28,205 nucleotides of DNA from a virus: IMG/VR virus record IMGVR_UViG_3300039412_000897, positions 1-28,205 of that record; one strand, 5' to 3'. Of this stretch, positions 86 to 28,205 are shown one piece after another; position 1 is the stretch's first letter; the number at the start of each line of letters is the position of its first letter. The notes beneath the pieces are model-generated. The model had not been told where the DNA came from. It made no database searches and saw only the letters and a list, made by a program, of their open reading frames with translations. The translations under genes were made by a program, and so were the position numbers.

Positions 86-769
86 ATGTCAAAGCAAAGC
101 TTAATATTAAAGGGTAATTATAACGTTCCAAAAACAGAAACAGAGAAGGAGGAAATAATTAATAAGGCTGCAGAAAAATATGGTGAATTTCTTACAGCTC
201 TAGGTTTTGATTATAAAAATGATTTGCATATGAGCGGAACACCTTTGAGAGTGAGTAAGAGTATGGTAAGAGATTTAATTTGTGGGTGTTATAATGATCC
301 TCCTAATATAACTGCATTTGATAATACAAATAATGGTCAAGATGAAGAGTCTAATTCTTTCTATGAACCTTATTCAGGTTTAGTTTATTCTGGATTAATA
401 CCAGTAACAAGCTTATGTAGTCATCATTTTTTGTCATTCACCGGTGAAGCGCACGTTTGTTATATTCCCGCAGATAAAGGTAAAGTAGTAGGTTATAGTA
501 AGTTAGGCCGAGTTGTGGATTGGTTTAGTCGTCGCCCACAAGTGCAGGAAAATTTGACGAATCAAATATTTTCTTATTTAAATAAAGTATGTGTCAAAAA
601 CCAAGGAATTGCTGTTTATTTAGCTTGTAAACATCAATGCGCCTGCTCGAGGGGAGTGAAACAAAATTCTATAATGATGACATCAAAACTATCTGGTTCT
701 TTTCTCGATCCTAAAGATCAATCTCGTTTTGAATTTTATAAGTTTATTGAAATGGCTAAGAAATCTTAA
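86..769 (+). CDS. folE: GTP cyclohydrolase I (FolE)
   Basis: Converts GTP to 7,8-dihydroneopterin triphosphate, the first step of both folate and 7-deazaguanine (preQ0/queuosine) synthesis. The C-terminal half carries the family's core: SLCSHHF (C111, H114) and the HQCACSRGV block (C185) give the usual Cys-His-Cys zinc site, and SRRPQVQENLTNQI is the conserved helix around residues 148-161. At 227 aa it is normal for the family. The start has no Shine-Dalgarno sequence; TATAAT at 69-74 lies 11 nt upstream. It is convergent with the following protease gene and overlaps its end by 4 bp. With queC 20 kb away it suggests that the phage makes preQ0. A folate role cannot be excluded from this window alone. 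Confidence 0.95.
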   Translation: MSKQSLILKGNYNVPKTETEKEEIINKAAEKYGEFLTALGFDYKNDLHMSGTPLRVSKSMVRDLICGCYNDPPNITAFDNTNNGQDEESNSFYEPYSGLVYSGLIPVTSLCSHHFLSFTGEAHVCYIPADKGKVVGYSKLGRVVDWFSRRPQVQENLTNQIFSYLNKVCVKNQGIAVYLACKHQCACSRGVKQNSIMMTSKLSGSFLDPKDQSRFEFYKFIEMAKKS

Positions 770-1440
770 AGCATTGATTTTCTTATATTCTGAAAACCAA
801 AAGTTATCTTATAAGCTAGCCTATCTCTTTTAGATTTTAAATCTTGTAGTTCTTTATAATAAAAATTTAAAACTTTATTATATTCAGCAATTTTATTAAA
901 GGGAACATTAGGTAGACTATTTAATTCTTCTAATTCAGAAATTATAGGCTCCATCTTTACATAGAGACCTTCCATTTCTTGAATAGTTTCCTTTAACTGA
1001 TCTTGAAGAGGTAACATTCGAGCTTCATGTAGTTGCTCCTTAGAAACATCAATAACTGCGTCTATTTTCTTTAAAAACGGTTCTCCTATTAATACCTTTT
1101 CTTCATTCTTAGATCTATCTGCTACACTGAAAGGAATGTTTTGATAAAATTGACTACCTATCTTGAAATTAAGAAGGATAACTGGTCGTTTCTCTTCGAC
1201 AGAGCTACCTATATGAATGTCAATATCACCGTGTTTTTTAAATGAAACAGTTTTATTGTCAGCTGTTAAAAACTTAACTTTATTATCTGGTAATTCTTCA
1301 ATATTAGTTCCATGAATTACATTATAACCCTGATTTCCGCTATCCACTTTAGCTTTATATTGGCCAATTCCGTTAATATCAATTAACTCAATTAAGCCAA
1401 CAGAGGTCTGTTCCTTATAAAATTCATTAAATTTTTTCAT
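766..1440 (-). CDS. Retropepsin-like aspartic protease domain protein with head-targeting-like N-terminus
   Basis: Residues about 14-135 resemble the retropepsin-like fold of the RimK-associated protease family (PF05618): AKVDSGNQGYN holds a D33-S34-G35 active-site triad (DSG in place of DTG), and SVADRSKNEEKVLIGEPFL plus DAVID match the end of that domain, where a second conserved hydrophobic-G strand sits. Residues about 140-224 are charged and probably helical. The N-terminus MKKFNEFYKEQ resembles the T4 capsid-targeting sequence MKTYQEFIAEA, and LIE follows at 16-18. Function is unproven: it could be a protease packaged in the head or active in assembly. A CATAAATA late-promoter-like box lies about 105 bp upstream. 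Catalytic activity with DSG is plausible (many retropepsins use it) but not shown. Confidence 0.7.
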   Translation of the reverse strand: MKKFNEFYKEQTSVGLIELIDINGIGQYKAKVDSGNQGYNVIHGTNIEELPDNKVKFLTADNKTVSFKKHGDIDIHIGSSVEEKRPVILLNFKIGSQFYQNIPFSVADRSKNEEKVLIGEPFLKKIDAVIDVSKEQLHEARMLPLQDQLKETIQEMEGLYVKMEPIISELEELNSLPNVPFNKIAEYNKVLNFYYKELQDLKSKRDRLAYKITFGFQNIRKSML

Positions 1441-1540
1441 TTCGTGATAGTTTTAACCATATTTGAAACCATTCACTCTTAGTCCATTCGTCAGAATAAG
1501 ACATAGAGCTATATTGGTATGGATTAACATCTTTATCCAC
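1427..1540 (-). CDS. Possible small leader ORF, GTG start, 37 aa
   Basis: An open frame reads V-D-K-D-V-N-P-Y-Q-Y-S-S and so on to LKLSRNEKI, then TAA, overlapping the start of the protease gene. GTG at 1540 is the first plausible start after the CATAAATA box, which would make the mRNA nearly leaderless. The frame stays open further upstream (KYLIYSEDIN...) to about position 1600 without an in-frame ATG, but an out-of-frame ATG at 1580 precedes it by one base. It could therefore be a real small gene, a decayed gene that lost its start by a single-base change, or chance. No family was recognised. Confidence 0.25.
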   Translation of the reverse strand: MDKDVNPYQYSSMSYSDEWTKSEWFQIWLKLSRNEKI

Positions 1541-1545
1541 ATAGA

Positions 1546-1553
1546 TATTTATG
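1546..1553 (-). promoter_or_regulatory. Late-promoter-like box CATAAATA
   Basis: CATAAATA on the minus strand matches the T4 late consensus TATAAATA at 7 of 8 positions and would start transcription near 1540, upstream of the tagged protease gene. The presence of a gp55 homologue in the window supports such promoters. AT-richness makes chance matches common. Confidence 0.4.
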
Positions 1554-1578
1554 TCTTCAGAGTAGATTAAGTATTTGC

Positions 1579-1962
1579 ATGGCCTTTGATAAAGATTTTT
1601 ATGCTCTTAATGAGAAATATTCTAAACAATTACTCAATGAATTTGGATTAGGTCAAGCAGCTTGTGGGGAAGGTTTAGAGTCACCAATTCAAACGACAGT
1701 TGCTATTGAAGCTGAAGAAAAAATCAGCTCTACTCAATTACATGATAGATTAGAAACAATTTCTGAGTTGTCTAAATTATTGATTGGTATGACTCGAAGT
1801 TATAAAGTAGAACCATGGGTAGCAGAAAAAGTTTCGACTATTTATGTAAGTATATCTGAACTTTATAATAAGTTAGATTTAGAGTTAATTGAAAAAGAAA
1901 CACCTAAAGAAGAAAATGAAGATTCCCTTGAATCTGGTTATAGACCGGTTCGTCCAGGTTAA
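1579..1962 (+). CDS. Conserved small helical phage protein, function unknown
   Basis: A 127 aa protein. Residues about 53-100 form two predicted helices, with LHDRLETISELSKLL followed by VEPWVAEKVSTIYVSISELY. This 'W-x-x-x-K-(I/V)...' helical pattern recalls a segment I associate with small proteins of marine T4-like phages, but that is memory of a pattern and not a search result. The C-terminus is acidic (EKETPKEENEDSLESGY). There is no signal peptide or membrane segment. The gene is plus-stranded and convergent with the minus-strand tagged operon, overlapping its last gene by 4 bp. The start lacks an SD sequence. No function is assigned. Confidence 0.7.
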   Translation: MAFDKDFYALNEKYSKQLLNEFGLGQAACGEGLESPIQTTVAIEAEEKISSTQLHDRLETISELSKLLIGMTRSYKVEPWVAEKVSTIYVSISELYNKLDLELIEKETPKEENEDSLESGYRPVRPG

Positions 1963-2153
1963 TTACCAATACCAGTGTTGCTTGTAGTATTGCTCAAAGC
2001 ATTCGGAGGATTTCCATATGGAGGGGTATTAATATAATTTCGGGCTCCTGTGCAATCCTGAGAATTTACTGGTAAATTTTCCATAGAAATATGAAAAGGC
2101 TTTTTCTTTTTCTTCTTTTTCTGCTCTCTGTAAAAATCTCTAAATTTCTTCAT
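1959..2153 (-). CDS. Small lysine-patch protein with head-targeting-like N-terminus
   Basis: A 64 aa protein, last of the minus-strand run. It opens with MKKFRDFYREQ, nearly the same as the protease at 766-1440 and close to the T4 capsid-targeting sequence, and is followed directly by seven lysines (residues 12-18). The rest is Asn/Pro/Gly-rich and looks disordered. A short targeting peptide plus a polybasic patch would suit a DNA-contacting internal head protein; this is inference. Its start overlaps the stop of the upstream gene by one base. It lacks the DLL.I tail found in other members. Confidence 0.65.
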   Translation of the reverse strand: MKKFRDFYREQKKKKKKKPFHISMENLPVNSQDCTGARNYINTPPYGNPPNALSNTTSNTGIGN

Positions 2154-2545
2154 TAAACTGATCCTAGATCTAAATCAGGGCTATATTTTCTAATTATTGC
2201 AATAATTTTCTTTAATTGCTCATTAGCATTTTCAGGGTTAATATCACCTAAAGCTAAGATTTCTGAAGTATCTTCTGGTTTTGGTTTAACAACAAGAGCT
2301 TTAACTAAAAGTCTAATAAGCATAACTTCACCTTCTGAGGTTAGTTTTTTATTTTCTTGATCAGCATCTTTTGTTAAAGCTTCATCTCCACCAGTTCCGG
2401 GGGCAGCTGGTGTAGTTGCATCAGTTGCAGCAGGAGCTTCCGCAGTTTGTTGTCCACCAATACTATTGTTATTTGGAATAGCTGGTTGACTATCCTCAGA
2501 CAGCATTTTGTAAGCTCCTTTAATTAAAGTATCAAATTGTTTCAT
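2153..2545 (-). CDS. Putative internal head protein with targeting-like N-terminus
   Basis: A 130 aa protein in three parts. Residues 1-18 (MKQFDTLIKGAYKMLSED) are an amphipathic targeting-like helix with an L-S-E site. An Ala/Pro/Thr/Gly-rich linker follows to about residue 65. The C-terminal part, about 66-130, is helical, with EGEVMLIRLLVKAL and NPENANEQLKKIIAIIRKY. No enzyme motif is present. The layout suits a small head or core protein cleaved after its leader. It sits between an unknown gene 11 bp upstream and the lysine-patch gene, overlapping the latter by one base. The family was not otherwise identified. Confidence 0.65.
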   Translation of the reverse strand: MKQFDTLIKGAYKMLSEDSQPAIPNNNSIGGQQTAEAPAATDATTPAAPGTGGDEALTKDADQENKKLTSEGEVMLIRLLVKALVVKPKPEDTSEILALGDINPENANEQLKKIIAIIRKYSPDLDLGSV

Positions 2546-2556
2546 CTTATGAATAC

Positions 2557-3583: not shown

Positions 3584-3598
3584 TGAAAGTAATTAAGC

Positions 3599-4195
3599 TT
3601 ATATACCTAATAAATCAATCATTGCTCCTCTATCTTCAGGTTTATTAACTTTCTGAATAGCTAAGAATTCTTCATATGAGATTTGCTTTCCGTTAATCCA
3701 GTATTCATTATGTTTTCCATCTGGTCTTGTAATTGCTGGACCATCTTCTCTATGCAAAGTTCTACCTTTATCCTTAAAATATTCAGTAATACCATTACCC
3801 CCATTTGAAATAACCCAACCTTCTTTATATGGTTTAGCTATAAATTTCCACCCATAAATCTTAGTATTATGACTTAATAAGTTAAACCCTTCTTTTGTTT
3901 TCACAGCTGTCCACTGAGGAGGAAACCCATAATTATAATTATCATCCTCAACAGCCTCTACCAAATTTCTACGCTGAATTTTAATTTTCTTACTTTTCTT
4001 TTTCTTTTTTATCTTTCTACCAAAAATTGAATAAGGTAAACGAGCATCTCCAGGAGCATAAGCTTGGTCATTCTGAGAAGGAAATTGATTTCCATATTGA
4101 CCAGCTTGGATTTGGCCTGAATTAAATACAGATCCGATTCCACCTGCAATATTGTTTTCTAATATCTCTTTGTATAGTTTGTTAAATTTTTTCAT
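3599..4195 (-). CDS. Tagged protein with lysine patch, DGPA repeat and DLLGI tail
   Basis: A 198 aa mosaic. Residues 1-13 (MKKFNKLYKEILE) are targeting-like and contain I-L-E. A Gly/Gln/Asn-rich stretch with APGDARLPYSIFG follows. A strongly basic patch, IKKKKKSKKIKIQRR, lies near residue 62. The C-terminal half has LHREDGPAITRPDG and YWINGKQISYEEF, a short beta-type repeat also seen in two other genes here. It ends PEDRGAMIDLLGI. It is the only member combining the basic patch, repeat and tail. A packaged DNA-binding or injected protein is an inference. The start overlaps the upstream stop by 4 bp (ATGA type). Confidence 0.7.
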   Translation of the reverse strand: MKKFNKLYKEILENNIAGGIGSVFNSGQIQAGQYGNQFPSQNDQAYAPGDARLPYSIFGRKIKKKKKSKKIKIQRRNLVEAVEDDNYNYGFPPQWTAVKTKEGFNLLSHNTKIYGWKFIAKPYKEGWVISNGGNGITEYFKDKGRTLHREDGPAITRPDGKHNEYWINGKQISYEEFLAIQKVNKPEDRGAMIDLLGI

Positions 4196-4494
4196 ATGCT
4201 TAGTAAATCCTGAGCTTCTCCTGAATTTTCTTTAAACTTCTGAATAAACTGCCAATACTCTCTTTCTGTAAATTCTTTACCATTAATATAATAGTTATTA
4301 TCAATACCATCAGACCATTCAACAGCAGGACCATCTAATCTATGTAATGTTTTCATTGTTCTACATTCTGGACTATTACAATAATATGTAACATTACCGT
4401 TAGTTCGCTTCCAAATACCAGGAGCATATACGGTAATATTAGACATCCTATTATTAGGAGACATAACTGATTCAACTAGTTGACTAAATTTCAT
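4192..4494 (-). CDS. Tagged DGPA-repeat protein with DLLSI tail
   Basis: A 100 aa protein, first gene of the minus-strand run. It starts MKFSQLVESVM, a short targeting-like leader with L-V-E at residues 6-8. The middle has LHRLDGPAVEWSDG and YYINGKEFTEREYW, the same repeat unit as in the genes at 3599 and 27088. It ends EAQDLLSI. Such LHR.DGPA units are common in large phages, with unknown function. An ATTAAATA box about 30 bp upstream followed by CTATTAG resembles an extended T4 late promoter. No SD sequence is present. Confidence 0.7.
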   Translation of the reverse strand: MKFSQLVESVMSPNNRMSNITVYAPGIWKRTNGNVTYYCNSPECRTMKTLHRLDGPAVEWSDGIDNNYYINGKEFTEREYWQFIQKFKENSGEAQDLLSI

Positions 4495-4930: not shown

Positions 4931-6358
4931 ATGATAAATTTTTCTATAGAAAAAAGTGGTAAAAAAGCTATAATTTATGGAGATTTTTTTAAAGAAATCC
5001 GTGAAAAATTTTCAATTTATAATGAAGGGGCTCGCTTTGCTCAGAAGGTAAACCGCTTTGTATCTAGTAGATTATATTCTATAACGCCTACTGGTCGTTT
5101 TGATGTTGGCCTCTTTCCTGAATTACTAAAAACCGCTTCAACTTATACTGATAAAATAGAAGTAGATCCTAACTTATTAGATCAATTCAAAGGATATAAC
5201 CTAGAACCTTATAATGATTTAACTCTAAAATTGCGAGATTATCAAAGTATATGTGTTAAAACTGCATTAGAAAAAGGTCGAGGTTGTATTATTCTGGCAA
5301 CCGCGGGTGGGAAGACACTCATCCTAGCTTCATTGTTAAGCTCTATTTTTTTACAAAAAAAATGCAGAGGAGTTATTATTGTTCCAAATAGAAGTTTAGT
5401 AACTCAAACCTATGGTGATCTTATAGAATATAAAGTTCCTTTTTCTTTATCTAAGTGGACAGGGGATGATCAGCTCAATCTAAATGCGGATTTTGTTATT
5501 ACTAATGTTGGAATTTTACAAAGTGAAAACAGTGACTTGTCTTGGATGGAAAATTTAGATGTTGTCGTAGTTGATGAGGTTCACGGCTTCCGCAAAACAA
5601 ATTCAGTCAACAAACTTCTAAAAGACATAGAAACACATCACAGATATGGATTAACAGGAACTCTACCGCCTAATCTAATAGATCAATGGAATATTATTGG
5701 TAAATTTGGTCCAATAATATATGAAAAGACAAGTGCCGAATTACGAGATGAGAAGTATATTGCTGATGTTGAAATACAATCTCTAAATTTATATTACAAT
5801 AACAAACCAAGTTATAACAAAGAGCACGATATACCTACATTAAACTATAGAATAGAGTTGGATTTCTTAATAGAAAACTCATTTAGAAATCAAAAAATTG
5901 CTTATCTTGCTAATAATGTTCAAAACAATTGCCTAATCTTAGTAGATTATATTAAACATGGACAAATATTATATGACGAATTGACAAAAAACAACTTAAA
6001 TAATAAAGAAGTTTACTACATTCGTGGTGAAGTTGAGATAGAGGATAGAGAAGAAATAAGAAGATTAGTAGAACTAAAGAAAAATGTAGTTATTATAGCT
6101 ATATCTAAGATTTTTAGTGTTGGAGTAAATATTAAGAATTTACATTATATTATTTTTGCTGGTGGAGGAAAGGCAAAAATAAAAACCCTGCAATCAATTG
6201 GTCGTGGATTACGGTTACATAAAGATAAAGATAAGCTAGTTATCTTTGATATTGTAGATCAACTAAGATATGGAAATAGACATTATGAACAAAGAAAGCA
6301 ATTATACGAAAATGAAAGAATTAAAAATTACGAAACAGAAATCAGAGAAAAAGCTTAA
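4931..6358 (+). CDS. uvsW: UvsW-like SF2 DNA/RNA helicase
   Basis: A recombination and repair helicase that remodels stalled forks and branch-migrates junctions, and that in T4 also unwinds R-loops to shut down early origins. Seen here: an N-terminal region (1-85) of the UvsW type, LRDYQ before the motor, Walker A TAGGKT (about 123-129), DEVH box in VVVDEVHGFRK (about 213), YGLTGTLPP (motif III), and QSIGRGLRLH (motif VI, about 420). The 475 aa length is close to T4 UvsW. It directly follows uvsY, and its 3' end overlaps the start of gene 55. The assignment is secure at family level. Confidence 0.92.
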   Translation: MINFSIEKSGKKAIIYGDFFKEIREKFSIYNEGARFAQKVNRFVSSRLYSITPTGRFDVGLFPELLKTASTYTDKIEVDPNLLDQFKGYNLEPYNDLTLKLRDYQSICVKTALEKGRGCIILATAGGKTLILASLLSSIFLQKKCRGVIIVPNRSLVTQTYGDLIEYKVPFSLSKWTGDDQLNLNADFVITNVGILQSENSDLSWMENLDVVVVDEVHGFRKTNSVNKLLKDIETHHRYGLTGTLPPNLIDQWNIIGKFGPIIYEKTSAELRDEKYIADVEIQSLNLYYNNKPSYNKEHDIPTLNYRIELDFLIENSFRNQKIAYLANNVQNNCLILVDYIKHGQILYDELTKNNLNNKEVYYIRGEVEIEDREEIRRLVELKKNVVIIAISKIFSVGVNIKNLHYIIFAGGGKAKIKTLQSIGRGLRLHKDKDKLVIFDIVDQLRYGNRHYEQRKQLYENERIKNYETEIREKA

Positions 6359-6767
6359 GCCTAGAGAAAAAGAGCATTACGTTAACGGAAAAGAGTTTGA
6401 GAATGAAATCCGCGAATACTATAAAACTAATATAGTTACAGATAAGTTAGCTGATTCTATCATGAAGATAGCTCACGGATTGTCGTATGCGCCGAATTTC
6501 ATCAACTACAGTTATAAGCCCGATATGGTCGGGGATGCTATTTTAAAGATGTATACTGCTCTTAAAAATAAGAAATTCCGAGTCGACTCAGGATTTAACC
6601 CTTTTTCTTATATGACTACCGTTTCGTTCCACGCATTTATCAATCGGATCAAGAAAGAGAAAAAACATCATGATACAATCAATGAATACAAAGAAAGAAT
6701 CTATACTGATGCTATGAAAGAAGAGAATGTCTATATAGATCCTACTCACGAAGAACAAGATTTTTAA
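6312..6767 (+). CDS. 55: Late-transcription sigma factor, gp55-like
   Basis: A small sigma-70-related factor that directs host RNA polymerase to TATAAATA late promoters. It shows HYVNGKEFENEIREYY (like the start of T4 gp55), then LSYAPNFINYSYKPDMVGD, DSGFNPFSYMTTVSFHAFI and NRIKKEKK, the region 2-like core with the conserved N-P-(F/H)-(S/A)-Y. In-frame ATGs also exist at 6270 and 6285; 6312 is preferred because it keeps the overlap with uvsW to 47 bp and starts near the conserved region. T4 gp55 ends in a clamp-binding SLDFLY motif; here the tail is HEEQDF, so clamp contact may differ. Its presence implies that late promoters of T4 type exist in this genome. Confidence 0.85.
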   Translation: MKELKITKQKSEKKLKPREKEHYVNGKEFENEIREYYKTNIVTDKLADSIMKIAHGLSYAPNFINYSYKPDMVGDAILKMYTALKNKKFRVDSGFNPFSYMTTVSFHAFINRIKKEKKHHDTINEYKERIYTDAMKEENVYIDPTHEEQDF

Positions 6768-6816: not shown

Positions 6817-8535
6817 ATGACACCAGAACAAAAAGCTGCAAATAAAGCAAAAAGAATAGCTACTAACCTCAGAAAATACGGGGTAGAGTGGCCGCTTCAA
6901 CTAAAATCAGTCCAAGAAAGAAGAAAAAAAGCTATGCTTGCAAAGTATGGTGCTGAGAATTATCTTCAGTCTAAAAAAGGTAAAGAACATTTCAAAGAAG
7001 TTTGCTTAGAAAAATATGGGGTAGATAGCCACTTCAAAACAAAAGAAGTCCAAGATAAAATAAAAGCTACTAATATAGAAAGATATGGAGTAGATAATGT
7101 TTTTAAATCGGAAGAAATTTATAATAAAGGTGAAATTACTAGACTAGAAAAGTATGGTGATATATCAATGACTAAGACTGATCACTTCAAAGAAAAACGA
7201 AGTGAAACCTTAATTGAGAAATTTGGAACAGATAATATTTCATCTGTTGAAGAAATAAAAGATAAAAAGAAAGAAACATGGCTTAGTATATATGGAGTAG
7301 ATCATCCTTGGAAATCTGATGAAATAAGAGCTAAAAGTAAACAAACAATGTTTGAGCATTACGGTGTAACCCATCAAATGCAATCTGAAGAAATTGTAAA
7401 TAAAGTTAGAGATACATGCCTCGAAAGATATGGTGTAGATAATTACCTCAAAACATCAGAAATAAAAGAAAAAATAACAGAGCATAACGAAGAAAAAAGA
7501 ATATCTGCATATGCTAATTTATCAAGATTTAAAAATGTAAAACCTCTATTTACTATCGAAGAATATACAGGTCACGGAAAAGTGTATAAATGGCAAAAAA
7601 TTTCCACAGGAGAAGAGTTTGATACATCATACTGGGGTTACGAACCACAAGGTAAATTCTATTTTACATCTATTGAACAGTTTATAATAGATTATTTAAA
7701 TCAAAATAATATTGAATATGAAACTAAAAACCGAACTATAATTAAACCCTTAGAATTAGATTTTTATATACCAAAATTTAATTTAGCTATTGAAACTAAC
7801 GGTATATATTTTCATTCAACTGCTGTTTTGGATGATGATAATTATCACTTTAATAAATTTAATCTCTGCAAAGAAAAAGGAATTAGACTTATTCAAATAT
7901 TTGAAGATGAAATTTTACATAAACCCAGGATTATCTATAATAGATTAAATCATATATTACAACTCTGTAAATATAAAATTTATGGTAGAAATTGTGAAAT
8001 TAAACAGATAGAACCAAGTTTAAAAGATAAATTTCTAAATAAATATCATATACAAAAAACTTGTCAAAGCAAAATAAACTTAGGAGCTTTTTATAAAAAT
8101 AGGTTAGTAGCTGTTATGACATTTAGCCAAAACCGAATAGCTATTAAACAAGCTCCAAATACTTGGGAATTAACTCGGTTTGCTACTATTGGAAAATTTT
8201 CAATTATTGGTATAGCAGGTAAATTATATCAACATTTTTTACAAAATTATAATCATGGTAAATTAATCATCATTAGTTATTCAGATTTATGTTGGGGTGA
8301 AGGTAAATTATATGAAAAACTAGGATTTAAATTTGAAAGATATACTACACCTGGATATTTTTATTATAATTACAGAGCTAATTTCAGACAACATCGTTAT
8401 ACTTTTAGAAAATCAGAACTCAGTAAAATATTAGAAAACTTTGATTCTCTTAAATCAGAAGAAGAAAATATGGTAAGTAATGGATATCTAAAAATCTACA
8501 ATGCTGGAAATGCTAAGTATATTCATTCTTTTTAG
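6817..8535 (+). CDS. Free-standing homing endonuclease: KYGV repeats, VSR/EDxHD-like nuclease and GNAT-like C-terminus
   Basis: A 572 aa protein. Residues about 12-225 hold nine units of about 23 aa with the pattern (K/R)YGV(D/E)N..(K/Q)(S/T).E(I/V)..K.., known from large phages and probably DNA-contacting. Residues about 285-390 form a nuclease of the VSR/PD-(D/E)XK type, with SIEQFIIDYL, LELDFYIPKFNLAIETNG, YHFNKFNLCKEKG and LIQIFEDE, as in EDxHD homing enzymes. Residues about 400-540 include WELTRFATIG, SYSDLCWGEGKLYEKLGF and YFYYN, a GNAT-like module found with such nucleases. It lies between gene 55 and the yopX-like gene and is more AT-rich and lysine-rich than its neighbours, consistent with independent acquisition. 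An AT-rich 49 bp leader precedes it. Confidence 0.85.
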   Translation: MTPEQKAANKAKRIATNLRKYGVEWPLQLKSVQERRKKAMLAKYGAENYLQSKKGKEHFKEVCLEKYGVDSHFKTKEVQDKIKATNIERYGVDNVFKSEEIYNKGEITRLEKYGDISMTKTDHFKEKRSETLIEKFGTDNISSVEEIKDKKKETWLSIYGVDHPWKSDEIRAKSKQTMFEHYGVTHQMQSEEIVNKVRDTCLERYGVDNYLKTSEIKEKITEHNEEKRISAYANLSRFKNVKPLFTIEEYTGHGKVYKWQKISTGEEFDTSYWGYEPQGKFYFTSIEQFIIDYLNQNNIEYETKNRTIIKPLELDFYIPKFNLAIETNGIYFHSTAVLDDDNYHFNKFNLCKEKGIRLIQIFEDEILHKPRIIYNRLNHILQLCKYKIYGRNCEIKQIEPSLKDKFLNKYHIQKTCQSKINLGAFYKNRLVAVMTFSQNRIAIKQAPNTWELTRFATIGKFSIIGIAGKLYQHFLQNYNHGKLIIISYSDLCWGEGKLYEKLGFKFERYTTPGYFYYNYRANFRQHRYTFRKSELSKILENFDSLKSEEENMVSNGYLKIYNAGNAKYIHSF

Positions 8536-10165: not shown

Positions 10166-11966
10166 CAGCGTAGAAATAAAGAATTTCTTATCAATTGGTA
10201 ATGATCCTGTTGTAGTTAATTTTAAAACAGGGCTGAATATCATTACTGGTATAAACTTAGATCAAGAAGATCGCAGAAATGGCATAGGGAAAAGCGCAAT
10301 CCTAGATTCTGTCTACTTTTGTTTATACGGAGAAGCTCTTAGAGAAGTAGAACGCTTAGAGCAACTTAATAACTATAGAACTAAGAAATCTTGCGCAGTT
10401 AAATTAAAATTTCATATTGTAGAAAATACTAAGACTACTAATGTTGAAATTTGTAGATATTTAAAACCTTCCAAATGTGAAATTTTTATAGATAATGAGT
10501 TAAAAACCTTAGACTCTATAACAAATACAAATACTCTAATTGTTCAGCTTCTTCATTGTGATAAAGATGCTTTTAAGAATTGTGTCTCAATGTCTTTGAA
10601 TAATACAACTCCGTTTATGTTGAAGAAAAAGCAACAAAAGCGTGAATTTATTGAAAGTATTTTTAATTTAGGAACTTTCTCAGAAATGTTGGATATTGTT
10701 AAAAAGAGAATTTCTGCAGATAACAGAGAATTAGAAGTTGAAGCTGCTAAATTTGATGAAACAGGTAGAAATATTACTGCTTTTGAAAATCAAAAGAAAA
10801 ACTTTGAATCCGAGAAAATTCGCAAAAAACAAAATTTTAATGTCAGACTTGAACAGATAGATAAGGAAATATTACAAAATAATAAAGCTGCATCTGAATT
10901 AAAAGAAATAGATTTTATTACAAAATACAAGGAATTAAACACCAGAAAAACAGAAATTCAAAAAGGTATAGGCGGATATAGAAATAAGGCTGAATCTGTT
11001 AGTTCTTTAATTGTAGAAAGCACCACAAAAATAATAATCTTTAAGAAAAACTTAGAATCTATTTCAAAACAATTAGGATCTTGTCCAACCTGTAAGAGAC
11101 CATTCTTAGAACATGACAAAGAACTCTTAGAAAAAGAAAAGGTTTCTTTACAAGAGAATATTGATGCTGAGAAGACAAAATCATCTGGAAAACTAAAAGA
11201 AAAGGATGAATATCTGAGTGCTATTAGACAATTAGAAGAAGCTGTTGATACTATAGATTCTCAGATAAAAGCTTTTAATCGCTCAGAATCTCAAATAAGG
11301 TTATTAGACGAAAAAAATAACTCCTTAGAAAAGGAGAGAGAGCAAGTTAATCAGAATATCACAGAGATTAATAACTCGACAGCTCAGTTTGATAAACTTA
11401 TTGAAGATAATAAAAACAGACAAAAAGAATTAACCGCTATTATTGAAAAGAAAAAGAATAACTTAGCTCTTTTAGATAAGGCTAAGTTTGTATTTTCTGA
11501 GGAAGGTGTCAAAGCCTATTTAATTAAGAAAACCTTAGATTTATTCAATAACCGCTTAGCCTATTATTTGAAGCAACTAAATTCTAAGTATATGTGTTTA
11601 TTTAACGAATACTTTGAAGAAGAAATTCTTAATGATTTAGGAGAAACTTATTCATATAATAATCTAAGTGGAGCAGAAAGAAAATCAATAGATTTTGCAT
11701 GTTTATTTACATTTATGGATGTTCGTAGGCTGCAGGGAGATGTTAGTATAAATGTGAGTTTCTATGATGAGTTACTAGATACTAGCTTAGACGAAAAGGG
11801 TATTGAGTTAGTATTGAATATCCTAAAAGAACGAATTGAAAAATATAATGAATCTATGTTTGTAATTAGTCATAGAAAGGAAGCAGCTAAGTTTGCTACA
11901 GGAGAAGTGGTTTACATTGAGCTACGGTCAGGAATTTCAAGAAGAGTAGAATATTCAAATATCTAA
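10146..11966 (+). CDS. 46: Recombination nuclease subunit gp46 (SbcC/Rad50-like ATPase)
   Basis: The ATPase partner of gp47. It shows an extended Walker A ending RNGIGKSAILD (about 44-54), a coiled coil from about 175 to 435 interrupted by the zinc hook CPTCKRP (C313, C316), the ABC signature NLSGAERKS (about 505) and Walker B FYDELLD (about 539), followed by VISHR. At 606 aa it is near the T4 length. The 3' end overlaps a convergent minus-strand gene by 12 bp. Confidence 0.95.
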   Translation: MKSIIFDSVEIKNFLSIGNDPVVVNFKTGLNIITGINLDQEDRRNGIGKSAILDSVYFCLYGEALREVERLEQLNNYRTKKSCAVKLKFHIVENTKTTNVEICRYLKPSKCEIFIDNELKTLDSITNTNTLIVQLLHCDKDAFKNCVSMSLNNTTPFMLKKKQQKREFIESIFNLGTFSEMLDIVKKRISADNRELEVEAAKFDETGRNITAFENQKKNFESEKIRKKQNFNVRLEQIDKEILQNNKAASELKEIDFITKYKELNTRKTEIQKGIGGYRNKAESVSSLIVESTTKIIIFKKNLESISKQLGSCPTCKRPFLEHDKELLEKEKVSLQENIDAEKTKSSGKLKEKDEYLSAIRQLEEAVDTIDSQIKAFNRSESQIRLLDEKNNSLEKEREQVNQNITEINNSTAQFDKLIEDNKNRQKELTAIIEKKKNNLALLDKAKFVFSEEGVKAYLIKKTLDLFNNRLAYYLKQLNSKYMCLFNEYFEEEILNDLGETYSYNNLSGAERKSIDFACLFTFMDVRRLQGDVSINVSFYDELLDTSLDEKGIELVLNILKERIEKYNESMFVISHRKEAAKFATGEVVYIELRSGISRRVEYSNI

Positions 11967-12266
11967 GAGATCTGAAGCAGTATAATAATCTTTTTCCTTA
12001 TCTAATTTAGGGAGTAAATCAAATTGACTTCTAAAAATAATATAATAACCTAGTATCATTTCACCTTGATCTGGTTTTAAATGTATCCAATATTCAGGCC
12101 CCTTACTATGCCCGACATCCATTATTTTGTTAATTTCAGCTAATTTGTTTCGTATTTTAGGTATAACTTCATATGTATCATGTATTTTAATAATATCACC
12201 AACTTTAGGTTCTTGTTCTAAAGATTTTTTATAATCTTCAAAAATTAATTTGTCATCTTTTGTCAT
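11955..12266 (-). CDS. Tagged small protein with SH3-like core and DLLDI tail (paralogue 3 of 3)
   Basis: A 103 aa protein. N-terminus MTKDDKLIFEDYKKSLE belongs to the second targeting-like type (KD..LI(F/Y)E.Y) and contains I-F-E. Core residues about 19-85 begin PKVGDIIKI and look like a small beta barrel. The end is KLDKEKDYYTASDLLDI. Its start overlaps the upstream gene's stop by 4 bp. It is last of three genes of the same architecture, probably arisen by duplication and heavy divergence. The head-packaging role is inferred from the N-terminus only. Confidence 0.65.
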   Translation of the reverse strand: MTKDDKLIFEDYKKSLEQEPKVGDIIKIHDTYEVIPKIRNKLAEINKIMDVGHSKGPEYWIHLKPDQGEMILGYYIIFRSQFDLLPKLDKEKDYYTASDLLDI

Positions 12267-12646
12267 ATATCTAATAAGTCTAATCCCGTTTGTTTATCCT
12301 CTTTATTTTTGAGTTTTGTCAATAATAAATATTGTTCTTCAGAAATTTCATCTACTTCATAGTTTTGGTTTGACATACCAATTCTGTCATACACTCTACC
12401 TATTATACCATATCTTCTAACAGAGCCTGGTATTTTTCTTTTCCATGTAACAATATCACCTTTTTTCCAAGGAAAATTTACAAAACCTCCACCACCAACT
12501 ACATAATAGTTTGCAGTTAAGCGGGGTGGATGAGTTAGGATAATATAATCAGAAACATCAACAATTCCATGATCGTAGTAATCAAGAGTTAATATACGAT
12601 TATTTTCGTAATAAAGCTGATAAATTTGCTGACAGTCTTTATTCAT
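12263..12646 (-). CDS. Tagged small protein with SH3-like core and DLLDI tail (paralogue 2 of 3)
   Basis: A 127 aa protein. It starts MNKDCQQIYQLYYENN, a weaker version of the KDCQLIYE.Y leader. The core has WKKGDIVTWKRKIPGSV and RYGIIGRVYDRIG, the spacing of an SH3/KOW-like barrel: a G-D-I-V strand, then G-x-V. It ends KEDKQTGLDLLDI. The ATG overlaps the stop of the frameshifted gene upstream (ATGA), and its own stop overlaps the next start. Binding of nucleic acid or protein by the barrel is possible; nothing in the sequence decides between them. Confidence 0.65.
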   Translation of the reverse strand: MNKDCQQIYQLYYENNRILTLDYYDHGIVDVSDYIILTHPPRLTANYYVVGGGGFVNFPWKKGDIVTWKRKIPGSVRRYGIIGRVYDRIGMSNQNYEVDEISEEQYLLLTKLKNKEDKQTGLDLLDI

Positions 12647-12971
12647 ATATTCAACAAATCTCCAAAATCTACAGCATCCTTTTCATCTTCTAATTTGGTA
12701 GCAGAAATAAATTCAACACAGTTTTTATTTATTGCTATAGTAGAACAACTCCCACCATTTAATAATTTAAAACTATAAGAATCTTTGTTAATATGTGTTA
12801 TGACAGCTAATTTACCATTTAAAGAATGAAAACCTCCACATTTTCCTCATCCCAATATGGACTACTATACCAACTACTTCTCCGCACGTTTATTTTAACA
12901 ATACAACCAGGCTTAATCCTAGGATCAATTGTGTAAGCTTCGTATATTAATTGGCAATCTCTGTTAAACAT
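12643..12971 (-). pseudogene. Tagged small gene with an internal -1 frameshift (paralogue 1 of 3)
   Basis: The frame from ATG 12971 reads MFNRDCQLIYEAYTIDPRIK, then PGCIVKI... and stops after 50 codons at 12819. In the -1 frame the reading continues as CGGFHSLNGKLAVITHINKD through INKNCVEFISATKLEDEKD to FGDLLNI, then TGA at 12643-12645, overlapping the next ATG. The two halves together give a leader, barrel-like core and DLLNI tail, exactly the architecture of the two genes that follow. The frames join at an A-run (TTTT on the plus strand, 12841-12844): one more A would give a 109 aa protein reading DEEKCGG. It may be a real mutation, a homopolymer error in the assembly, or slippage at the A-run. 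Confidence 0.7.
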
Positions 12972-14901: not shown

Positions 14902-14905
14902 ATTT

Positions 14906-20483: not shown

Positions 20484-21200
20484 ATGAATGATTCAGTGGT
20501 GCTTGCCTTTTCTGGAGGTGGAGATTCTACAGTTCTTCTTTATAAAGCTATTAAAGAATTTAGTAAAGTTTACACTATTTCTTTTGATTATGGTCAAAGA
20601 CATATTAGAGAATTACAATGCGTAGATTTCCATATTAAGAAAAATCCGACCGTAGATAATAAAATTGTAAAATTACCATTTCTTTCCTTATTCAAAGGAT
20701 GTTCATTGACAGATAAAACAATTGATGTTGCCCTTACAAAGAATATAATGGGGGATCCTCAGAACAATAACTACTTCCCAAACAGAAATACAATTTTCTT
20801 ATCTATTTTGACTGGTTATGCAGAGAGTATAGGTTGTAATACAGTTTGGTATGGTGCGGCTCAAGCGGATTCAGTCGCGGGCTTTTTCGATGGAAGCAAA
20901 GAGTTCCTACAAAAGATCAACGAAGTTAATGCATTAAATCGTAGGCATAAGATTCAAATAGGAGCTCCCTTAATCGAGATGAGTAAAAAACAGATTTTAC
21001 AGCAAGGTATACAATTAGGAGTTGACTTTAGCCATACAATAACTTGTTATTCCGGAGAAGAATTAGCTTGCGGAATTTGTCCCAGTTGCTCTTTAAGATT
21101 AGCAGGCTGGATTAGTCTAAAACTGTGTGATCCGTTGAAATATCAAATTCAAGACAAACTAGAAGAAGTTTACAAGAAAAATAACTGTAAAGCTATATAA
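20484..21200 (+). CDS. queC: 7-cyano-7-deazaguanine synthase QueC
   Basis: Makes preQ0 from 7-carboxy-7-deazaguanine using ATP and ammonia. The PP-loop SGGGDS is at residues 10-15, followed by SFDYGQRH (conserved after the loop), NYFPNRNTIFLS and the C-terminal zinc site TCYSGEELACGICPSCSLR. The 238 aa length is standard. PreQ0 feeds queuosine in tRNA or 7-deazaguanine bases in phage DNA. FolE is in the window; QueD, QueE and a DpdA-type transferase are not, so they would be elsewhere in the genome or supplied by the host. It is convergent with the next gene, overlapping by 8 bp. Confidence 0.95.
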   Translation: MNDSVVLAFSGGGDSTVLLYKAIKEFSKVYTISFDYGQRHIRELQCVDFHIKKNPTVDNKIVKLPFLSLFKGCSLTDKTIDVALTKNIMGDPQNNNYFPNRNTIFLSILTGYAESIGCNTVWYGAAQADSVAGFFDGSKEFLQKINEVNALNRRHKIQIGAPLIEMSKKQILQQGIQLGVDFSHTITCYSGEELACGICPSCSLRLAGWISLKLCDPLKYQIQDKLEEVYKKNNCKAI

Positions 21201-22689
21201 CGTCAATATTTGATTTCTTTAAAAGAGATCTTAGAGATGCTTCTGCCGCAGGTATATTACCTCTTTGCAATCTTACAATTGTATTAATTGTTTTATTAAA
21301 ATCAGCTCTGTCAATAATTGCAGGAGTTGATTGTGTAGATATATTGACTGCAGATGCTTTTGGTTGAGCTTGATTTGAGTTAGTTTTTGTTTGAATAAAC
21401 TGATTAGGTTGTGTTTTTCTGGTTGCTGCTTCACCATAACTAGCTCTTAAAATATTATTAAAAACTTCTTGCGGATTTTCAACTTTATTTGAATTGTTAA
21501 TATTTTGCGCTTCAGATAATGAAGGTATATTTTCATCAACATTCTTCTCAAGCCAACTAATCATAAAATTACCTGGAATCTTATGATTAAAAACACCAGT
21601 ATAACCGGCATGTGCAGCTTGTTGTAAAAATACTCTATAAAGAGAATTTGCTGATTTTTCTGCTTGTAACCTACCTTTTGCTGCTGATGAACCTAGATTT
21701 GTTAAAGCTCTGTTTCCTAGACGGGTAAAGAAATTCTCATTAACTGCTTTAGCTTTATTACCTAATCCTAATCCAAAGGTTTTATTAACAATCTTAATAT
21801 TCTTAGCATTTTTATAAACTTCATAAATTAGATTTTCATCTTTTTTATACATAGATTTTTCAGGTGTTAACTGTCTTTCTTCTCTCTTTTGTTGAGAATA
21901 TGCAGGCAACTCATCAGTTTCAACATCAAACTGATAACCACCTACTGGTTGAATAGCATTCTTCTTAATTAAAGTTTCAACTAATGCATGAATTTCTTTA
22001 ATTGATTTAGTCTTAAATCTGCGAGCAGCATGTAGTTTTTCGATAATCGTTGATCCAGTATCATTATCACCAAAAATGTCAAGAGCATCTTGTTCCTCCT
22101 CTGTTAGACTATCTTCTTTAAACTTATCACCATATTTTTCATACTTTTCGTTTGCATTAAATGGTGGTCTAATCCACCCTTCATCTTCAGGTTCTAAGAA
22201 ATCTTCATCATCACCTTCTAAAGCTTCTAAGTCATGTTCTTTATCTGTATGTTTAATTTTGTCTAAAACAGGAGCTAAGGATTTTTCAATTTTCTTAGCA
22301 ACTTCTATAGTCTTAATTGGATGATCTACTCTGAATCCTGTTCTCTCATCAGTTAAAATTTTTGAATCTATTAGATAATCTTGGATTTTTCTAGCACAGT
22401 AACCTGCATCAGCAGAACCTATAACTGGAAATGTTTCTTTTACAATTCGAGCTACTTCATCTCTAAAAGATTTGTAGTCTAGAGGATATATTTTATTAGG
22501 ATTAGAAAGAAGAAACTTTTTAACATTAACAATAATTTCTGCAGCTTTATTCAACCTATCAGAATCCCCTGGAAGTTTATTTTTTAAATAGAAATCTTTA
22601 TATTTATCACTAGGAATATACTTAGGCTCCAGATCTTTAGTAAACTCTGGTCCTTCACCTGTAGGAGCCTCTAAAATGAAGTTTTTCAT
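21193..22689 (-). CDS. Large tagged protein with duplicated FRDEVA domain
   Basis: A 498 aa protein. The short leader MKNFILEAP has I-L-E at residues 5-7. Residues about 46-122 form a domain (VNVKKFLLSNP, YKSFRDEVARIVKETFP, AGYCARKIQDYL, ILTDERTG) also found in the neighbour at 22696. An acidic stretch follows at about 150-200, then basic helices near 300-345, an Asn/Gln-rich low-complexity stretch (about 395-450) and a C-terminal helix. No enzyme motif was seen. The layout suggests an abundant structural or internal head protein. It lies 6 bp after the upstream gene's stop, so the two form one transcript. Confidence 0.7.
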   Translation of the reverse strand: MKNFILEAPTGEGPEFTKDLEPKYIPSDKYKDFYLKNKLPGDSDRLNKAAEIIVNVKKFLLSNPNKIYPLDYKSFRDEVARIVKETFPVIGSADAGYCARKIQDYLIDSKILTDERTGFRVDHPIKTIEVAKKIEKSLAPVLDKIKHTDKEHDLEALEGDDEDFLEPEDEGWIRPPFNANEKYEKYGDKFKEDSLTEEEQDALDIFGDNDTGSTIIEKLHAARRFKTKSIKEIHALVETLIKKNAIQPVGGYQFDVETDELPAYSQQKREERQLTPEKSMYKKDENLIYEVYKNAKNIKIVNKTFGLGLGNKAKAVNENFFTRLGNRALTNLGSSAAKGRLQAEKSANSLYRVFLQQAAHAGYTGVFNHKIPGNFMISWLEKNVDENIPSLSEAQNINNSNKVENPQEVFNNILRASYGEAATRKTQPNQFIQTKTNSNQAQPKASAVNISTQSTPAIIDRADFNKTINTIVRLQRGNIPAAEASLRSLLKKSNIDVI

Positions 22690-22695: not shown

Positions 22696-23319
22696 TTAAA
22701 TTTTCTTTCTACTAAATTTCTTAGCAACTTTTGATCCACCAGCAATTTTTGGAGCACCAGCATCTCTTAGAGTAGAAGATACATTTTCAGATTTAGGTTC
22801 TGTTTCCGTCTTAGGTATTTCTGCTTCAGGTTTACCAGAAACCTCTTTAAACTTAGCTTCAATATCTTCAGGGCTTACAAGAGCAGCTGCTTTTGAAACA
22901 CGCAACTTACCATTTCTTTCATCTTTAAGAATTTCAGCACTTGTAAGAACTTCTTGAATTTTACGAGCAGTATACCCAGCATTTGCTTTGTCAATATTTG
23001 GAAATTCTTTTCGAATAATATTAGCTACTTCATCACGAAATGCTTTAAAATCACCAGGAAATATACAATCAGGCTGAGACTTTAAAAACTCCTTTACTTT
23101 CTTAATTACGACATAAGCAGTTTTACCGCGTAGTTCACCTTCCGGGATTTGTTTCATATACTTGGTCGTATCAGGATTAATTTCGGTGTGAGGTATATCC
23201 TTTTCAAAGTTTTCACCAGACTCTGTTGGTGGACTCTCAGTAAGAAGCTGCTTCTGGTGAATTTGTTTATATGCTTCTGAAAGCATATCTCTGTCTTTTT
23301 GAAAGTAAAATGAACTCAT
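22696..23319 (-). CDS. Tagged protein with FRDEVA domain
   Basis: A 207 aa protein. KDRDMLSEAYKQIH at residues 8-21 matches the second leader type (KD..L..EAY) and contains L-S-E; a second site L-T-E follows at 26-28. Residues about 62-141 carry the domain shared with the next gene: IKKVKEFLKSQP, FKAFRDEVANIIRKEFP, AGYTARKIQEVL and ILKDERNG. The remainder is charged and Pro-rich, ending basic (KVAKKFSRKKI). An AATAAATA late-like box lies 7 nt upstream of the start. It may be a head or core protein; binding partner unknown. Confidence 0.7.
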   Translation of the reverse strand: MSSFYFQKDRDMLSEAYKQIHQKQLLTESPPTESGENFEKDIPHTEINPDTTKYMKQIPEGELRGKTAYVVIKKVKEFLKSQPDCIFPGDFKAFRDEVANIIRKEFPNIDKANAGYTARKIQEVLTSAEILKDERNGKLRVSKAAALVSPEDIEAKFKEVSGKPEAEIPKTETEPKSENVSSTLRDAGAPKIAGGSKVAKKFSRKKI

Positions 23320-24701: not shown

Positions 24702-24704
24702 AAA

Positions 24705-25700: not shown

Positions 25701-25705
25701 ATAAT

Positions 25706-25713: not shown

Positions 25714-25733
25714 CAAAATATGTTGTATCTAAC

Positions 25734-25761
25734 TTGTTTTAAATTGTTTTTTTAATATAAT
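25734..25761 (+). promoter_or_regulatory. Sigma-70-like promoter TTGTTT-16-TATAAT, nearly leaderless
   Basis: TTGTTT at 25734-25739, a 16 bp spacer and TATAAT at 25756-25761, then 7 nt to the helicase ATG. Spacing is identical to the promoter at 23333. The upstream region is T-rich, which weakens the -35 call. Confidence 0.45.
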
Positions 25762-25768
25762 TTTAATA

Positions 25769-27091
25769 ATGCGTATAGACCCGGATTTTGTCGAGACAAT
25801 TATTTGTTACCAATGTTTGACTGACGAGATTTATTTAGCTTCTGTAATAGACAATCTAAAACCTGAATATTTCAGGAATAAAGATATTAAGAATATCTTT
25901 GAAATTATTGTTGAATACTTTACAAAGCGAAATAAACCACCCACTCTTACTGAAATAAAATCTTACCTTATCTCAGATGAATTAAAAAAATCATTCAAGA
26001 ATGTAGTTGCTCAGTTTACTGGAATAGATCAGAACTTAGACAAAGATGAACTTTATGCTAATACTGAAATATTTTTAAAAGAGAAAGCGGTTTATCATAC
26101 CCTAATGGAAGTTATAGGAATACATGAAGGTGGTAAAGAGATTGATACTTCTCTAATTCTTAATAAATTTGAAAAAGCTTGTAGCATAAATCTACATAAC
26201 GATATTGGTTTAGATTTGTTTAATAATATTGACGAGTTAGTAAAATTTCTAAAACTAGAACAACCATTTATTAAGTCAGGCTGGAAGTGGTTAGATGAAA
26301 AACTCGGAGGAGGATTCTTTGAAAATGGTAGAGCTTTATATGTTTTTGCAGGTGAAACTAATATTGGTAAAAGTATTTTCTTAGGTAACATTGCAGATAA
26401 TATAGCATCTCAAGGTAAAACTGTATTGTTAATAACTCTAGAAATGCCTGAGATGATATATGCTCAGAGAATCTGCACTAAGACAACAAAAATACCAATT
26501 TCTGATTTAAGAACAGAAGCAGAAACTCTAAGAACTGCTATTAATCAATATAAAACTGAGATACCTGGAGCGCGGATATTAATTAAGGAATTTCCTCCAA
26601 GCACAATTACCCCAAATCAGTTAAAAGCTTATATTAAGAAAATTACTTCAAGCGGAATAAAAATAGATGCAATTGTCTTAGATTATATAAACCTACTAAC
26701 AACTACAGTAGGAACTAATAGCTACGAAAGAATTAAGCATATTGCTGAACAACTAAGAGCTTTATCCTATGTATTTAGTTGTCCAATTATTTCAGCGACC
26801 CAATTATCAAGAGCAGCAATCGGCCAATCAGATCCAGGATTAGAAACAGTGTCTGAGAGTTTGGGAACAGCTATGACTTGCGATGTCATGTGTAGTATTT
26901 ATCAAGATGAATCTGATAAAGAATTAGGATTAATTTCTCTCGGATTAATGAAAAACAGATTTGGTATTAGAAATGTAACTCGTAAAATGCGGATTGACTA
27001 CAAAACATTATCTATTACAGAAGATGAACATGTAAATGACACTGAAGCAGGTATTTCTTCGATTAATATATTGAACACTTTAGCTAATTAG
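25769..27091 (+). CDS. 41: Replicative DNA helicase, DnaB/gp41-like
   Basis: Unwinds the fork ahead of the polymerase. The N-terminal domain (1-165) has the helical DnaB-type layout. The RecA-like motor shows Walker A GETNIGKS (about 195-202), VLLITLEMPEMIYAQRI (catalytic Glu strand), Walker B DAIVLDYINLL (about 300-310) and CPIISATQLSRA. At 440 aa it is near T4 gp41 (475). No primase gene is seen beside it. Its stop overlaps the convergent tagged gene by 4 bp. Confidence 0.92.
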   Translation: MRIDPDFVETIICYQCLTDEIYLASVIDNLKPEYFRNKDIKNIFEIIVEYFTKRNKPPTLTEIKSYLISDELKKSFKNVVAQFTGIDQNLDKDELYANTEIFLKEKAVYHTLMEVIGIHEGGKEIDTSLILNKFEKACSINLHNDIGLDLFNNIDELVKFLKLEQPFIKSGWKWLDEKLGGGFFENGRALYVFAGETNIGKSIFLGNIADNIASQGKTVLLITLEMPEMIYAQRICTKTTKIPISDLRTEAETLRTAINQYKTEIPGARILIKEFPPSTITPNQLKAYIKKITSSGIKIDAIVLDYINLLTTTVGTNSYERIKHIAEQLRALSYVFSCPIISATQLSRAAIGQSDPGLETVSESLGTAMTCDVMCSIYQDESDKELGLISLGLMKNRFGIRNVTRKMRIDYKTLSITEDEHVNDTEAGISSINILNTLAN

Positions 27092-27477
27092 ATATCTAAG
27101 AGATCTGTAGCAGCGCCTCTATCTTCTGGTTTAAACTTTTTGACTAAATTCCAATATTCTTCTTCATTATATAACTTACCGTTAATATAGTATTTTTTAT
27201 CTAATCCTCCGTCTCTTATAACAGCAGGCCCATCTAATCTATGTAATATATTATGAACTAAATAAGTTTTGCTCCCATTTTTCCACTCTATAGCTGGTCC
27301 ATCTAATCTATGTAAGATAGTTTTCTCTCTATCAGAATAATATTCAGTATATTTTAAGGTTTTATTCAAATAAAGTATAGCATCATCAGAGTCGATATAA
27401 GTTTCTAAGCAATTACCTTTTCTGTAATGACCTACTCGCTTATACACTTCAAATATTAGTTGACAATCTCTATTCAC
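27088..27477 (-). CDS. Tagged DGPA-repeat protein with DLLDI tail, GTG start
   Basis: A 129 aa protein with both tags. It starts MNRDCQLIFEVYKRVG (from GTG; I-F-E present). Two repeat units follow, LHRLDGPAIEWKNGSKTYLV and LHRLDGPAVIRDGG, then KKYYINGKLYNEEEYW, and it ends KPEDRGAATDLLDI, almost the same tail as the gene at 3599. It therefore links the two leader types through the same core and tail. ATTAAATA lies a few bases upstream. Function is unknown; a packaged late protein is the favoured inference. Confidence 0.72.
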   Translation of the reverse strand: MNRDCQLIFEVYKRVGHYRKGNCLETYIDSDDAILYLNKTLKYTEYYSDREKTILHRLDGPAIEWKNGSKTYLVHNILHRLDGPAVIRDGGLDKKYYINGKLYNEEEYWNLVKKFKPEDRGAATDLLDI

Positions 27478-27483
27478 TACAAT

Positions 27484-27491
27484 TATTTAAT
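27484..27491 (-). promoter_or_regulatory. Late-promoter-like box ATTAAATA
   Basis: Same 8-mer as at 4524 (6 of 8 to TATAAATA), 6 nt before the GTG start at 27477. Confidence 0.35.
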
Positions 27492-27540
27492 ATGTTGGTA
27501 TTGTGGATAATTAAACTTCCTCCTCTAAATCCTTTTATAA

Positions 27541-27828
27541 ATGAACACATTCTCTGAGACAGAATCCTTAGAAACAATTGAGCTAAACCATCTTTTTCTT
27601 AGTTTTTGTAGTTATGTCACCCTAACCCAAGGAAAGCGGCTTAATATTGCAAACATATTTCTACTAGTTCTTCAAAATCGAAATCTCCGAGAATTGTTTA
27701 AGACATTTATGGAACTCGAGACAGATTATTTAGTTGTCGAAACATTTTTAAAATTTGACAACTCTTTGTATAAGAGTAAATATATTACGAAGTATCTGAA
27801 TGCTGCCGGGAAAAATAAGATTAGATAA
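27541..27828 (+). CDS. Hypothetical protein after the helicase
   Basis: A 95 aa, predicted helical, soluble protein with LETIELNHLFLSFCSYV, LNIANIFLLVLQN and LRELFKTFMELETDY. The hydrophobic segment near residue 42 is too short for a membrane helix. No SD sequence; the 60 bp upstream are AT-rich with CTCCTC on the coding strand, which is not an SD. No family was recognised. It is kept as a gene because no better frame covers the region and the codons look ordinary. Confidence 0.55.
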   Translation: MNTFSETESLETIELNHLFLSFCSYVTLTQGKRLNIANIFLLVLQNRNLRELFKTFMELETDYLVVETFLKFDNSLYKSKYITKYLNAAGKNKIR

Positions 27829-27829
27829 G

Positions 27830-28205
27830 TTATTCAGAATCTGCATATCTTTCTTTACGGTCAGCATAATGTTGATCTAAATCAGTTAGTTTACCAGTTA
27901 GTTTACCAGTTAGTTTATTATAAGTTGTCTTAAATGGTTCCTCATTTTTTAGATTTAATATAGTTGCAATAAACGTAGAGCTTACATTTCTATTTTCTTT
28001 ATTTAGACGAGATATTAATACATTAAGATGTTCTGAGTCTAACTGATTCATAGCTTCGCATACCTCTGCAATTCTCTGTTGATTAAGAGAATCAGGATCA
28101 GAATTTAGCATATTTCGAACAATATTTAAAATACCTGCATATACTGCAGATGTTTGGTGTATATCTTTATAATTTTCGTAAATTAGTTGACAATCTTTTG
28201 TTTCT
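27830..28205 (-). CDS. Tagged protein, 5' end outside the window
   Basis: An ATG at 28111 exists, but the frame stays open upstream to the window edge and reads ETKDCQLIYENYKDIHQTSA, the same leader as at 27088 and 12971, so the true start is beyond 28205. At least 124 residues are present. The body is helical (NQQRIAEVCEAMNQLDSEHL, ISRLNKENRNVSS), then a KLTG repeat and an ADRKERYAD end. It lacks the DLL.I tail. I-Y-E lies within the leader. Function unknown. Confidence 0.7.
   Translation of the reverse strand, partial: ETKDCQLIYENYKDIHQTSAVYAGILNIVRNMLNSDPDSLNQQRIAEVCEAMNQLDSEHLNVLISRLNKENRNVSSTFIATILNLKNEEPFKTTYNKLTGKLTGKLTDLDQHYADRKERYADSE
27883..27917. repeat. 12-bp direct repeat, three copies
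   Basis: The unit cagttagtttac occurs twice in full and once as 11 bases, in frame, encoding KLTGKLTGKLT in the minus-strand protein. It probably arose by replication slippage and may vary between strains. Confidence 0.85.

Follow-up and report, generated by a model that had tools for sequence, protein, structure and literature searches.

The question raised by this locus is why twelve proteins of a phage known from metagenomic DNA, which differ over the rest of their length, should begin alike. The stretch analysed here (the window) is the whole of a 28,205-base fragment, IMGVR_UViG_3300039412_000897, which encodes a DNA polymerase, UvsX, UvsY, UvsW, gp46/47-type proteins and a DnaB-type helicase, all on the plus strand, and is therefore assigned to a T4-like phage. 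Its DNA polymerase shares only about 29% identity with those of the nearest deposited phages, and the nearest records for its UvsX are other metagenomic contigs (72-79%). The original prediction held that twelve minus-strand proteins with two types of N-terminal leader, A and B, are addressed to the prohead, cleaved, packaged and perhaps injected. All 12 ORFs with the quoted N-termini are present in the window (the positions first attached to them are those of their stop-codon ends). They are listed below with a possible further leader and a gene related to late transcription; a slash marks the putative cleavage point.

766 to 1440, minus strand: leader gene, type A (MKKFNEFYKE/Q), with a retropepsin/RimB-like aspartic-protease domain (DSG motif) and a helical C-terminus
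1579 to 1962, plus strand: possible 13th, weaker leader-like start (LNEKYSKQLLNE; MAFDKDFYALNEKYSKQLLNEFGLG), from a weak reading of the sequence
1959 to 2153, minus strand: leader gene, type A (MKKFRDFYRE/Q), with a lysine patch; homologue in a related record (G001:35161)
2153 to 2545, minus strand: leader gene, A/B intermediate (MKQFDTLIKGAYKMLSE/D); homologues in G001 and G037
3599 to 4195, minus strand: leader gene, type A (MKKFNKLYKEILE/N), with a capsid-protein-like segment (AYAPGDARLP), a basic stretch, an HRxDGPA domain and a C-terminal DLLGI
4192 to 4494, minus strand: leader gene, short type A (MKFSQLVE/S), with an HRLDGPA repeat and a C-terminal DLLSI
6270 to 6767, plus strand: gp55-type late sigma factor, expected reader of TATAAAT-like late promoters; the orthologue profile matches T4 gp55 (E 3.5e-14)
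11955 to 12266, minus strand: leader gene, type B (MTKDDKLIFE/DY), with a C-terminal DLLDI
12263 to 12646, minus strand: leader gene, type B variant without E10 (MNKDCQQIYQLYYE), with a C-terminal DLLDI
12643 to 12971, minus strand: leader gene, type B (MFNRDCQLIYE/AY), frame-shifted; the front is ORF 12819-12971 and the tail, KLEDEKDAVDFGDLLNI, lies in the other frame
21193 to 22689, minus strand: leader gene, short type A (MKNFILE/A), with a domain paralogous to the 22696 gene
22696 to 23319, minus strand: leader gene, type B (KDRDMLSE/AYKQI), with a second site LLTE/S; paralogue of 21193
27088 to 27477, minus strand: leader gene, type B (MNRDCQLIFE/VY), with HRLDGPA repeats and a C-terminal DLLDI
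27830 to 28204, minus strand: leader gene cut by the window edge, type B (..TKDCQLIYE/NYK)

Enrichment over shuffled genomes had been proposed as a check on the leaders, and an excess over shuffled N-termini was observed with a pattern anchored in the T4 register (type A: hydrophobic residues at positions 4, 7 and 8, glutamate at 10). Of 40 window genes 4 fit this pattern, where shuffling gives 0.13, and none of 2000 shuffles reaches four. Three of these four are genes of the original type A set, and the fourth, the plus-strand UvsY gene, is a false positive. The type B core stands at four window N-termini, with 0.08 expected from internal positions. Within the window all 12 leaders are on the minus strand, as originally described (P = 1.7e-7, given that 15 of 38 genes are minus), and the three minus-strand genes without a leader are those at 2557, 3065 (a PDDEXK endonuclease) and 24705 (an HTH protein). 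As a rule the strand split did not hold: in relatives, 31 leader genes lie on the same strand as the replication genes and 36 on the opposite one, and strand was rejected as evidence for the leader set, being a local feature. On the plus strand, two tandem paralogues of unassigned function (14227-15574) carry L(Q/E)LIYxNL near the start, a superficial likeness to type B.

Over 17 records of T4-like relatives, 54 copies of the type B core are N-terminal and 31 lie within proteins, a 22.5-fold enrichment at N-termini (p 1e-52), and the looser type A core showed a 2.9-fold N-terminal enrichment over 17 records. Since the regular expression used for type B fixes L, E and Y by construction, only N-terminal confinement and positions +5 and +7, which stood outside the selection, count as independent. 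The search of related phages with a leader profile, suggested at the outset, gave 53 N-terminal and 2 internal matches (62 leaders of the KDQxLLEEAY form, PSSM >= 10), and a scan of IMG/VR located DQxLLEEAY in 63 stretches, nearly always at the protein start. The exact DCQLI[YF]E had three matches in IMG/VR, including a record (L147) in which the leader is at the protein start. In an alignment of 104 leader proteins the consensus is limited to MKxKDQxLLEEAY and the proteins align over the leader alone, bearing out the claim that the bodies behind the leaders differ; these are aspartic-protease-like, nudix, nucleotidyltransferase and HTH proteins as well as many without known identity. One record of 66.5 kb (G021) holds 15 leader genes and another of 78 kb holds 8. 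Leader and body also appear to be exchangeable modules: HRxDGPA bodies have leader and tail in the window and are bare, with no leader, in G015, and a lysine patch like that of 1959 is also found behind a type B leader in L174. Among 13 leader copies in G021, six leucine codons are used at one position; since synonymous codons vary freely, the constraint acts on the peptide, and a DNA-level signal was rejected as the source of the shared leader. A leader-like protein of another relative, G002 (L094:15587-16219), shows an HExxH metalloprotease-like motif.

The division into two leader types survived in part, as both forms are present and no clean separation exists between them, with MKQFDTLIKGAYKMLSE (window 2153) and MKTYKQFLNEAY (G037) as intermediates. 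The tandem paralogues 21193 and 22696 carry an A-like leader on one and a B leader on the other, and judged by sequence the two types seem to be variants of a single leader. PHROG 2667, ‘internal head protein’, aligns from position 1 to the G037 intermediate, a protein that matches HTH families better. Type B was not seen in T4 itself, and as such it is thus distinct from the T4 sequence. Short leader queries against deposited phages (50,697 records) returned nothing convincing for type B, and the T4-like phage Mosig has hardly any leaders. Two other possibilities were rejected: in bacterial genomes the matches to DQxLLEEAY were internal or due to chance, and gp23, whose N-terminal helix might have been copied, scores at background.

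The presence of (L/I)-x-E in nearly every leader was confirmed, as 10 of the 12 have a strict [LI]xE among their first 25 residues; those without it are 1959 (YRE) and 12263 (YYE). The leaders of the 2153 homologues in G001 and G037 differ, and each ends in an [IL]xE-type site. Type B shows a second site, with frequencies of 0.82 for [LIVM] at +5 and 0.37 for E at +7, the latter 5.8 times the background. No S77 prohead protease is encoded in the 28 kb window, itself a fragment; of 40 related records, 15 have a gene for this enzyme, some of them alongside several leaders. The gp23 of the relatives lacks a T4-like cut site at the corresponding position of the alignment, and we infer for it a cut site of the form WC[LI]xE.

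With regard to expression, 44 of 81 leader genes have TAAATA within 30 nt of the start, as do 41 of 83 late orthologues and 4 of 139 early orthologues, and none of the other permutations, 15 in all, was as enriched as TAAATA and ATAAAT. Late promoters of T4 are known to have TATAAAT as their core (PMC3037559), and in the window ATAAATA lies close upstream of the start of the 22696 and 12643-12971 genes. As far as the promoter core indicates, the leader genes would be expressed late, along with the head genes.

A connection with the capsid is provided by the 3599 protein. Among all ORFs of 18 records, [YF]AxGDxRxP occurs only in 9 gp23 proteins, where it is placed behind the propeptide region, and in 6 small leader proteins, of which those checked adjoin uvsY. 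In IMG/VR, the matches listed for YAPGDARxP comprise gp23 proteins and at least 48 others, mostly small basic proteins; [LIVM]xE[DNSEMA] precedes the segment in 38 of 48 among the matches listed, against 6.3 in shuffles (maximum 15). The small YAPGDARxP proteins tested had no match in Pfam, PHROGs or deposited phages. Together with the window gene 3599-4195, L332-L411 make up an undescribed family of small basic proteins with a major-capsid segment behind a leader.

A further feature was found at the opposite end. Five window proteins (3599, 4192, 11955, 12263 and 27088) terminate in D-L-L-[DGSN]-I, as does the frame-shifted 12643-12971 (DLLNI, in the other frame), and all six carry leaders (p 3e-4). 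The tail was absent from every other record searched, and EDRGAxxDLLxI had no C-terminal match in IMG/VR. It resembles the end of the window DNA polymerase (TDLFDLLKS) and, more loosely, the LDFL-type ends of T4 gp43, gp33 and gp55. LDFL-type C-terminal peptides are a class known to bind the sliding clamp, and the D-L-L-x-I tail may possibly be a second address or a clamp-binding peptide.

Capsid targeting followed by cleavage is the best reading of these data because it explains the position of the leader, the motif, the promoter, the protease and the capsid link together. The leaders are thus likely to be short propeptides at the N-terminus which direct late proteins into the T4-like head as it forms and are removed at (L/I)-x-E, and this part of the original prediction is the best supported at the level of sequence. 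The leader, probably a short amphipathic helix, would dock on the prohead core; after assembly a gp21-type (S77) protease would cut behind the glutamate of (L/I)-x-E, which would free the body inside the head, and some bodies would then probably be delivered with the DNA. Several observations count against this explanation, namely the lack of a protease in the window, bodies that as a set are not basic (mean net charge -0.015 per residue), the missing strict site in 12263 and 1959, the near-leaderless Mosig and a gp23 without a T4-like site. Type B counts against it as well: not found in T4, it keeps hydrophobic residues near 7-8 with no aromatic at 4, where type A has F4/F7 (family A3), so that it may dock on something else.

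An unlikely alternative is that the leader proteins belong to the prohead core or scaffold (like gp67/gp68) and are cut up and lost at maturation. Late promoters and the cleavage motif would be identical in that case, the 3599 family resembles an assembly factor that binds the capsid, and some gp22 scaffolds (G026, G010) hold an EEAF helix whose score against the leader profile is among the top 1%; the enzyme-like bodies (aspartic protease, nudix, nucleotidyltransferase, HTH) argue against it, and a set of up to 15 proteins per record that varies between relatives suits cargo better. The capsid-protein-like segment of the 3599 family, the intermediates with the T4 sequence (MKTYKQFLNEAY), the conservation of F4/F7 in the 766 orthologues and the enriched second cleavage site all speak against a still less probable view, in which the leader serves to dock the protein on some other late structure (tail, baseplate, membrane, or replisome via the sliding clamp) and (L/I)-x-E is incidental. 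This view draws on the polymerase-like D-L-L-x-I ends of six leader proteins and on the difference between type B and the T4 targeting sequence. It is very improbable, and already largely refuted, that the shared starts are a trace of gene duplication or a nucleotide-level translation signal with no targeting role; some of the genes are indeed tandem paralogues (21193/22696), but leaders are fixed while bodies are unrelated, synonymous codons vary, and the leader is almost never internal.

Under capsid targeting with cleavage, the closest known system is the capsid-targeting sequence (CTS) of T4 (IPI, IPII, IPIII and Alt, cut by gp21). The modular cargo address, presented in the original prediction as new, is already known, since the internal proteins of T-even phages are diverse proteins that have only the capsid-targeting sequence in common (PMC3012670; PMC9026906), with residues 4 and 7 carrying the targeting in IPIII (PMC9026906). 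The anchored pattern picks out IPII, IPIII, gp24 and 61.1 among 257 ORFs of T4 (first 150 kb), and annotated Alt fits too. Shared with T4 are the N-terminal propeptide of about 10 residues with an (L/I)-x-E cut, the type A hydrophobics at 4, 7 and 8 with E10, diverse bodies with the leader alone in common, and a T4-like phage as carrier. In contrast to T4, the second residue behind the glutamate in type B (KDQxLLEEAYxx[IV]xE, DCQLIYEAY) is Tyr and position 4 is not aromatic, each phage has many more cargo genes, the window proteins have an extra C-terminal tail, and the bodies are not basic, whereas T4 internal proteins are small and basic (a typical trait, not a defining one). The start of T4 gp24 (MAKINELLRES) also fits the anchored pattern and T4 gp22 begins MLKEQLIAEAQKI; these are, however, shell and scaffold proteins and no cargo. 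In the SPN3US/phiKZ group, ejection proteins are cleaved by the prohead protease after glutamate and gp53 and gp54 have an identical N-terminus (PMC5694885), so that glutamate cleavage and an N-terminus common to different proteins are shared; their inner-body propeptides differ in being mostly much longer, with an A-x-E or S/A-x-E motif, and belong to another phage group.

Novelty lies in the type B form, in how many and how varied the tagged proteins are, in the small capsid-like family and in the C-terminal tail. More tentatively, and at a little short of an even chance, uncultured T4-like phages may have a general system of head-cargo delivery, with a non-T4 leader class on up to 15 or more unrelated late proteins per genome, including enzymes, an undescribed small capsid-segment family and a C-terminal D-L-L-x-I tag on half of the set in the window lineage. 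If so, these phages would carry far larger protein payloads than T4, a simple sequence tag would let the payload be listed from a phage genome, and a direct route would be given to the proteins of the first moments of infection, most of them without known fold or function. In T4, IPI blocks a restriction enzyme and IPIII is required on one E. coli strain (PMC9391042).

Among the individual genes, the 766 protein matches PF05618 at E 7e-5, under the curated cut-off, and PDB 9g58 by profile search (E 4e-7). In its AF2 model residues 1-15 have pLDDT below 50 and the folded domain begins at about residue 17; Foldseek gave no match to this model at E <= 0.001, only weak aspartic-protease and coiled-coil matches, and the sequence profile (PDB 9g58) offers stronger evidence than Foldseek. 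In this family (A3), Phe is invariant at positions 4 and 7 in 8 orthologues. The sole relative found in a deposited phage is an ATP-grasp and retropepsin fusion of Pelagibacter phage Mosig (L329:3351-4742), with a targeting-like start, PFKNYLEEA. The 22696 protein is 46% identical to that of 21193 over 110 aa, and its AF2 model was too weak for use. The latter has an internal type B motif at residue 282 (KKDENLIYEVYK) and is probably a fusion of two cargo modules, as if the prohead protease could part them. Close relatives of 27088 and 22696 were searched for and none were found. The frame shift in 12643-12971 reflects either a real pseudogene or an assembly error.

Elsewhere in the window, 6817-8535 encodes a DUF7487 protein that has repeats in its N-terminal part and resembles an endonuclease in its second half, and genes for GTP cyclohydrolase I and QueC (86-769 and 20484-21200) belong to the queuosine/preQ0 pathway, with a possible role in DNA modification.
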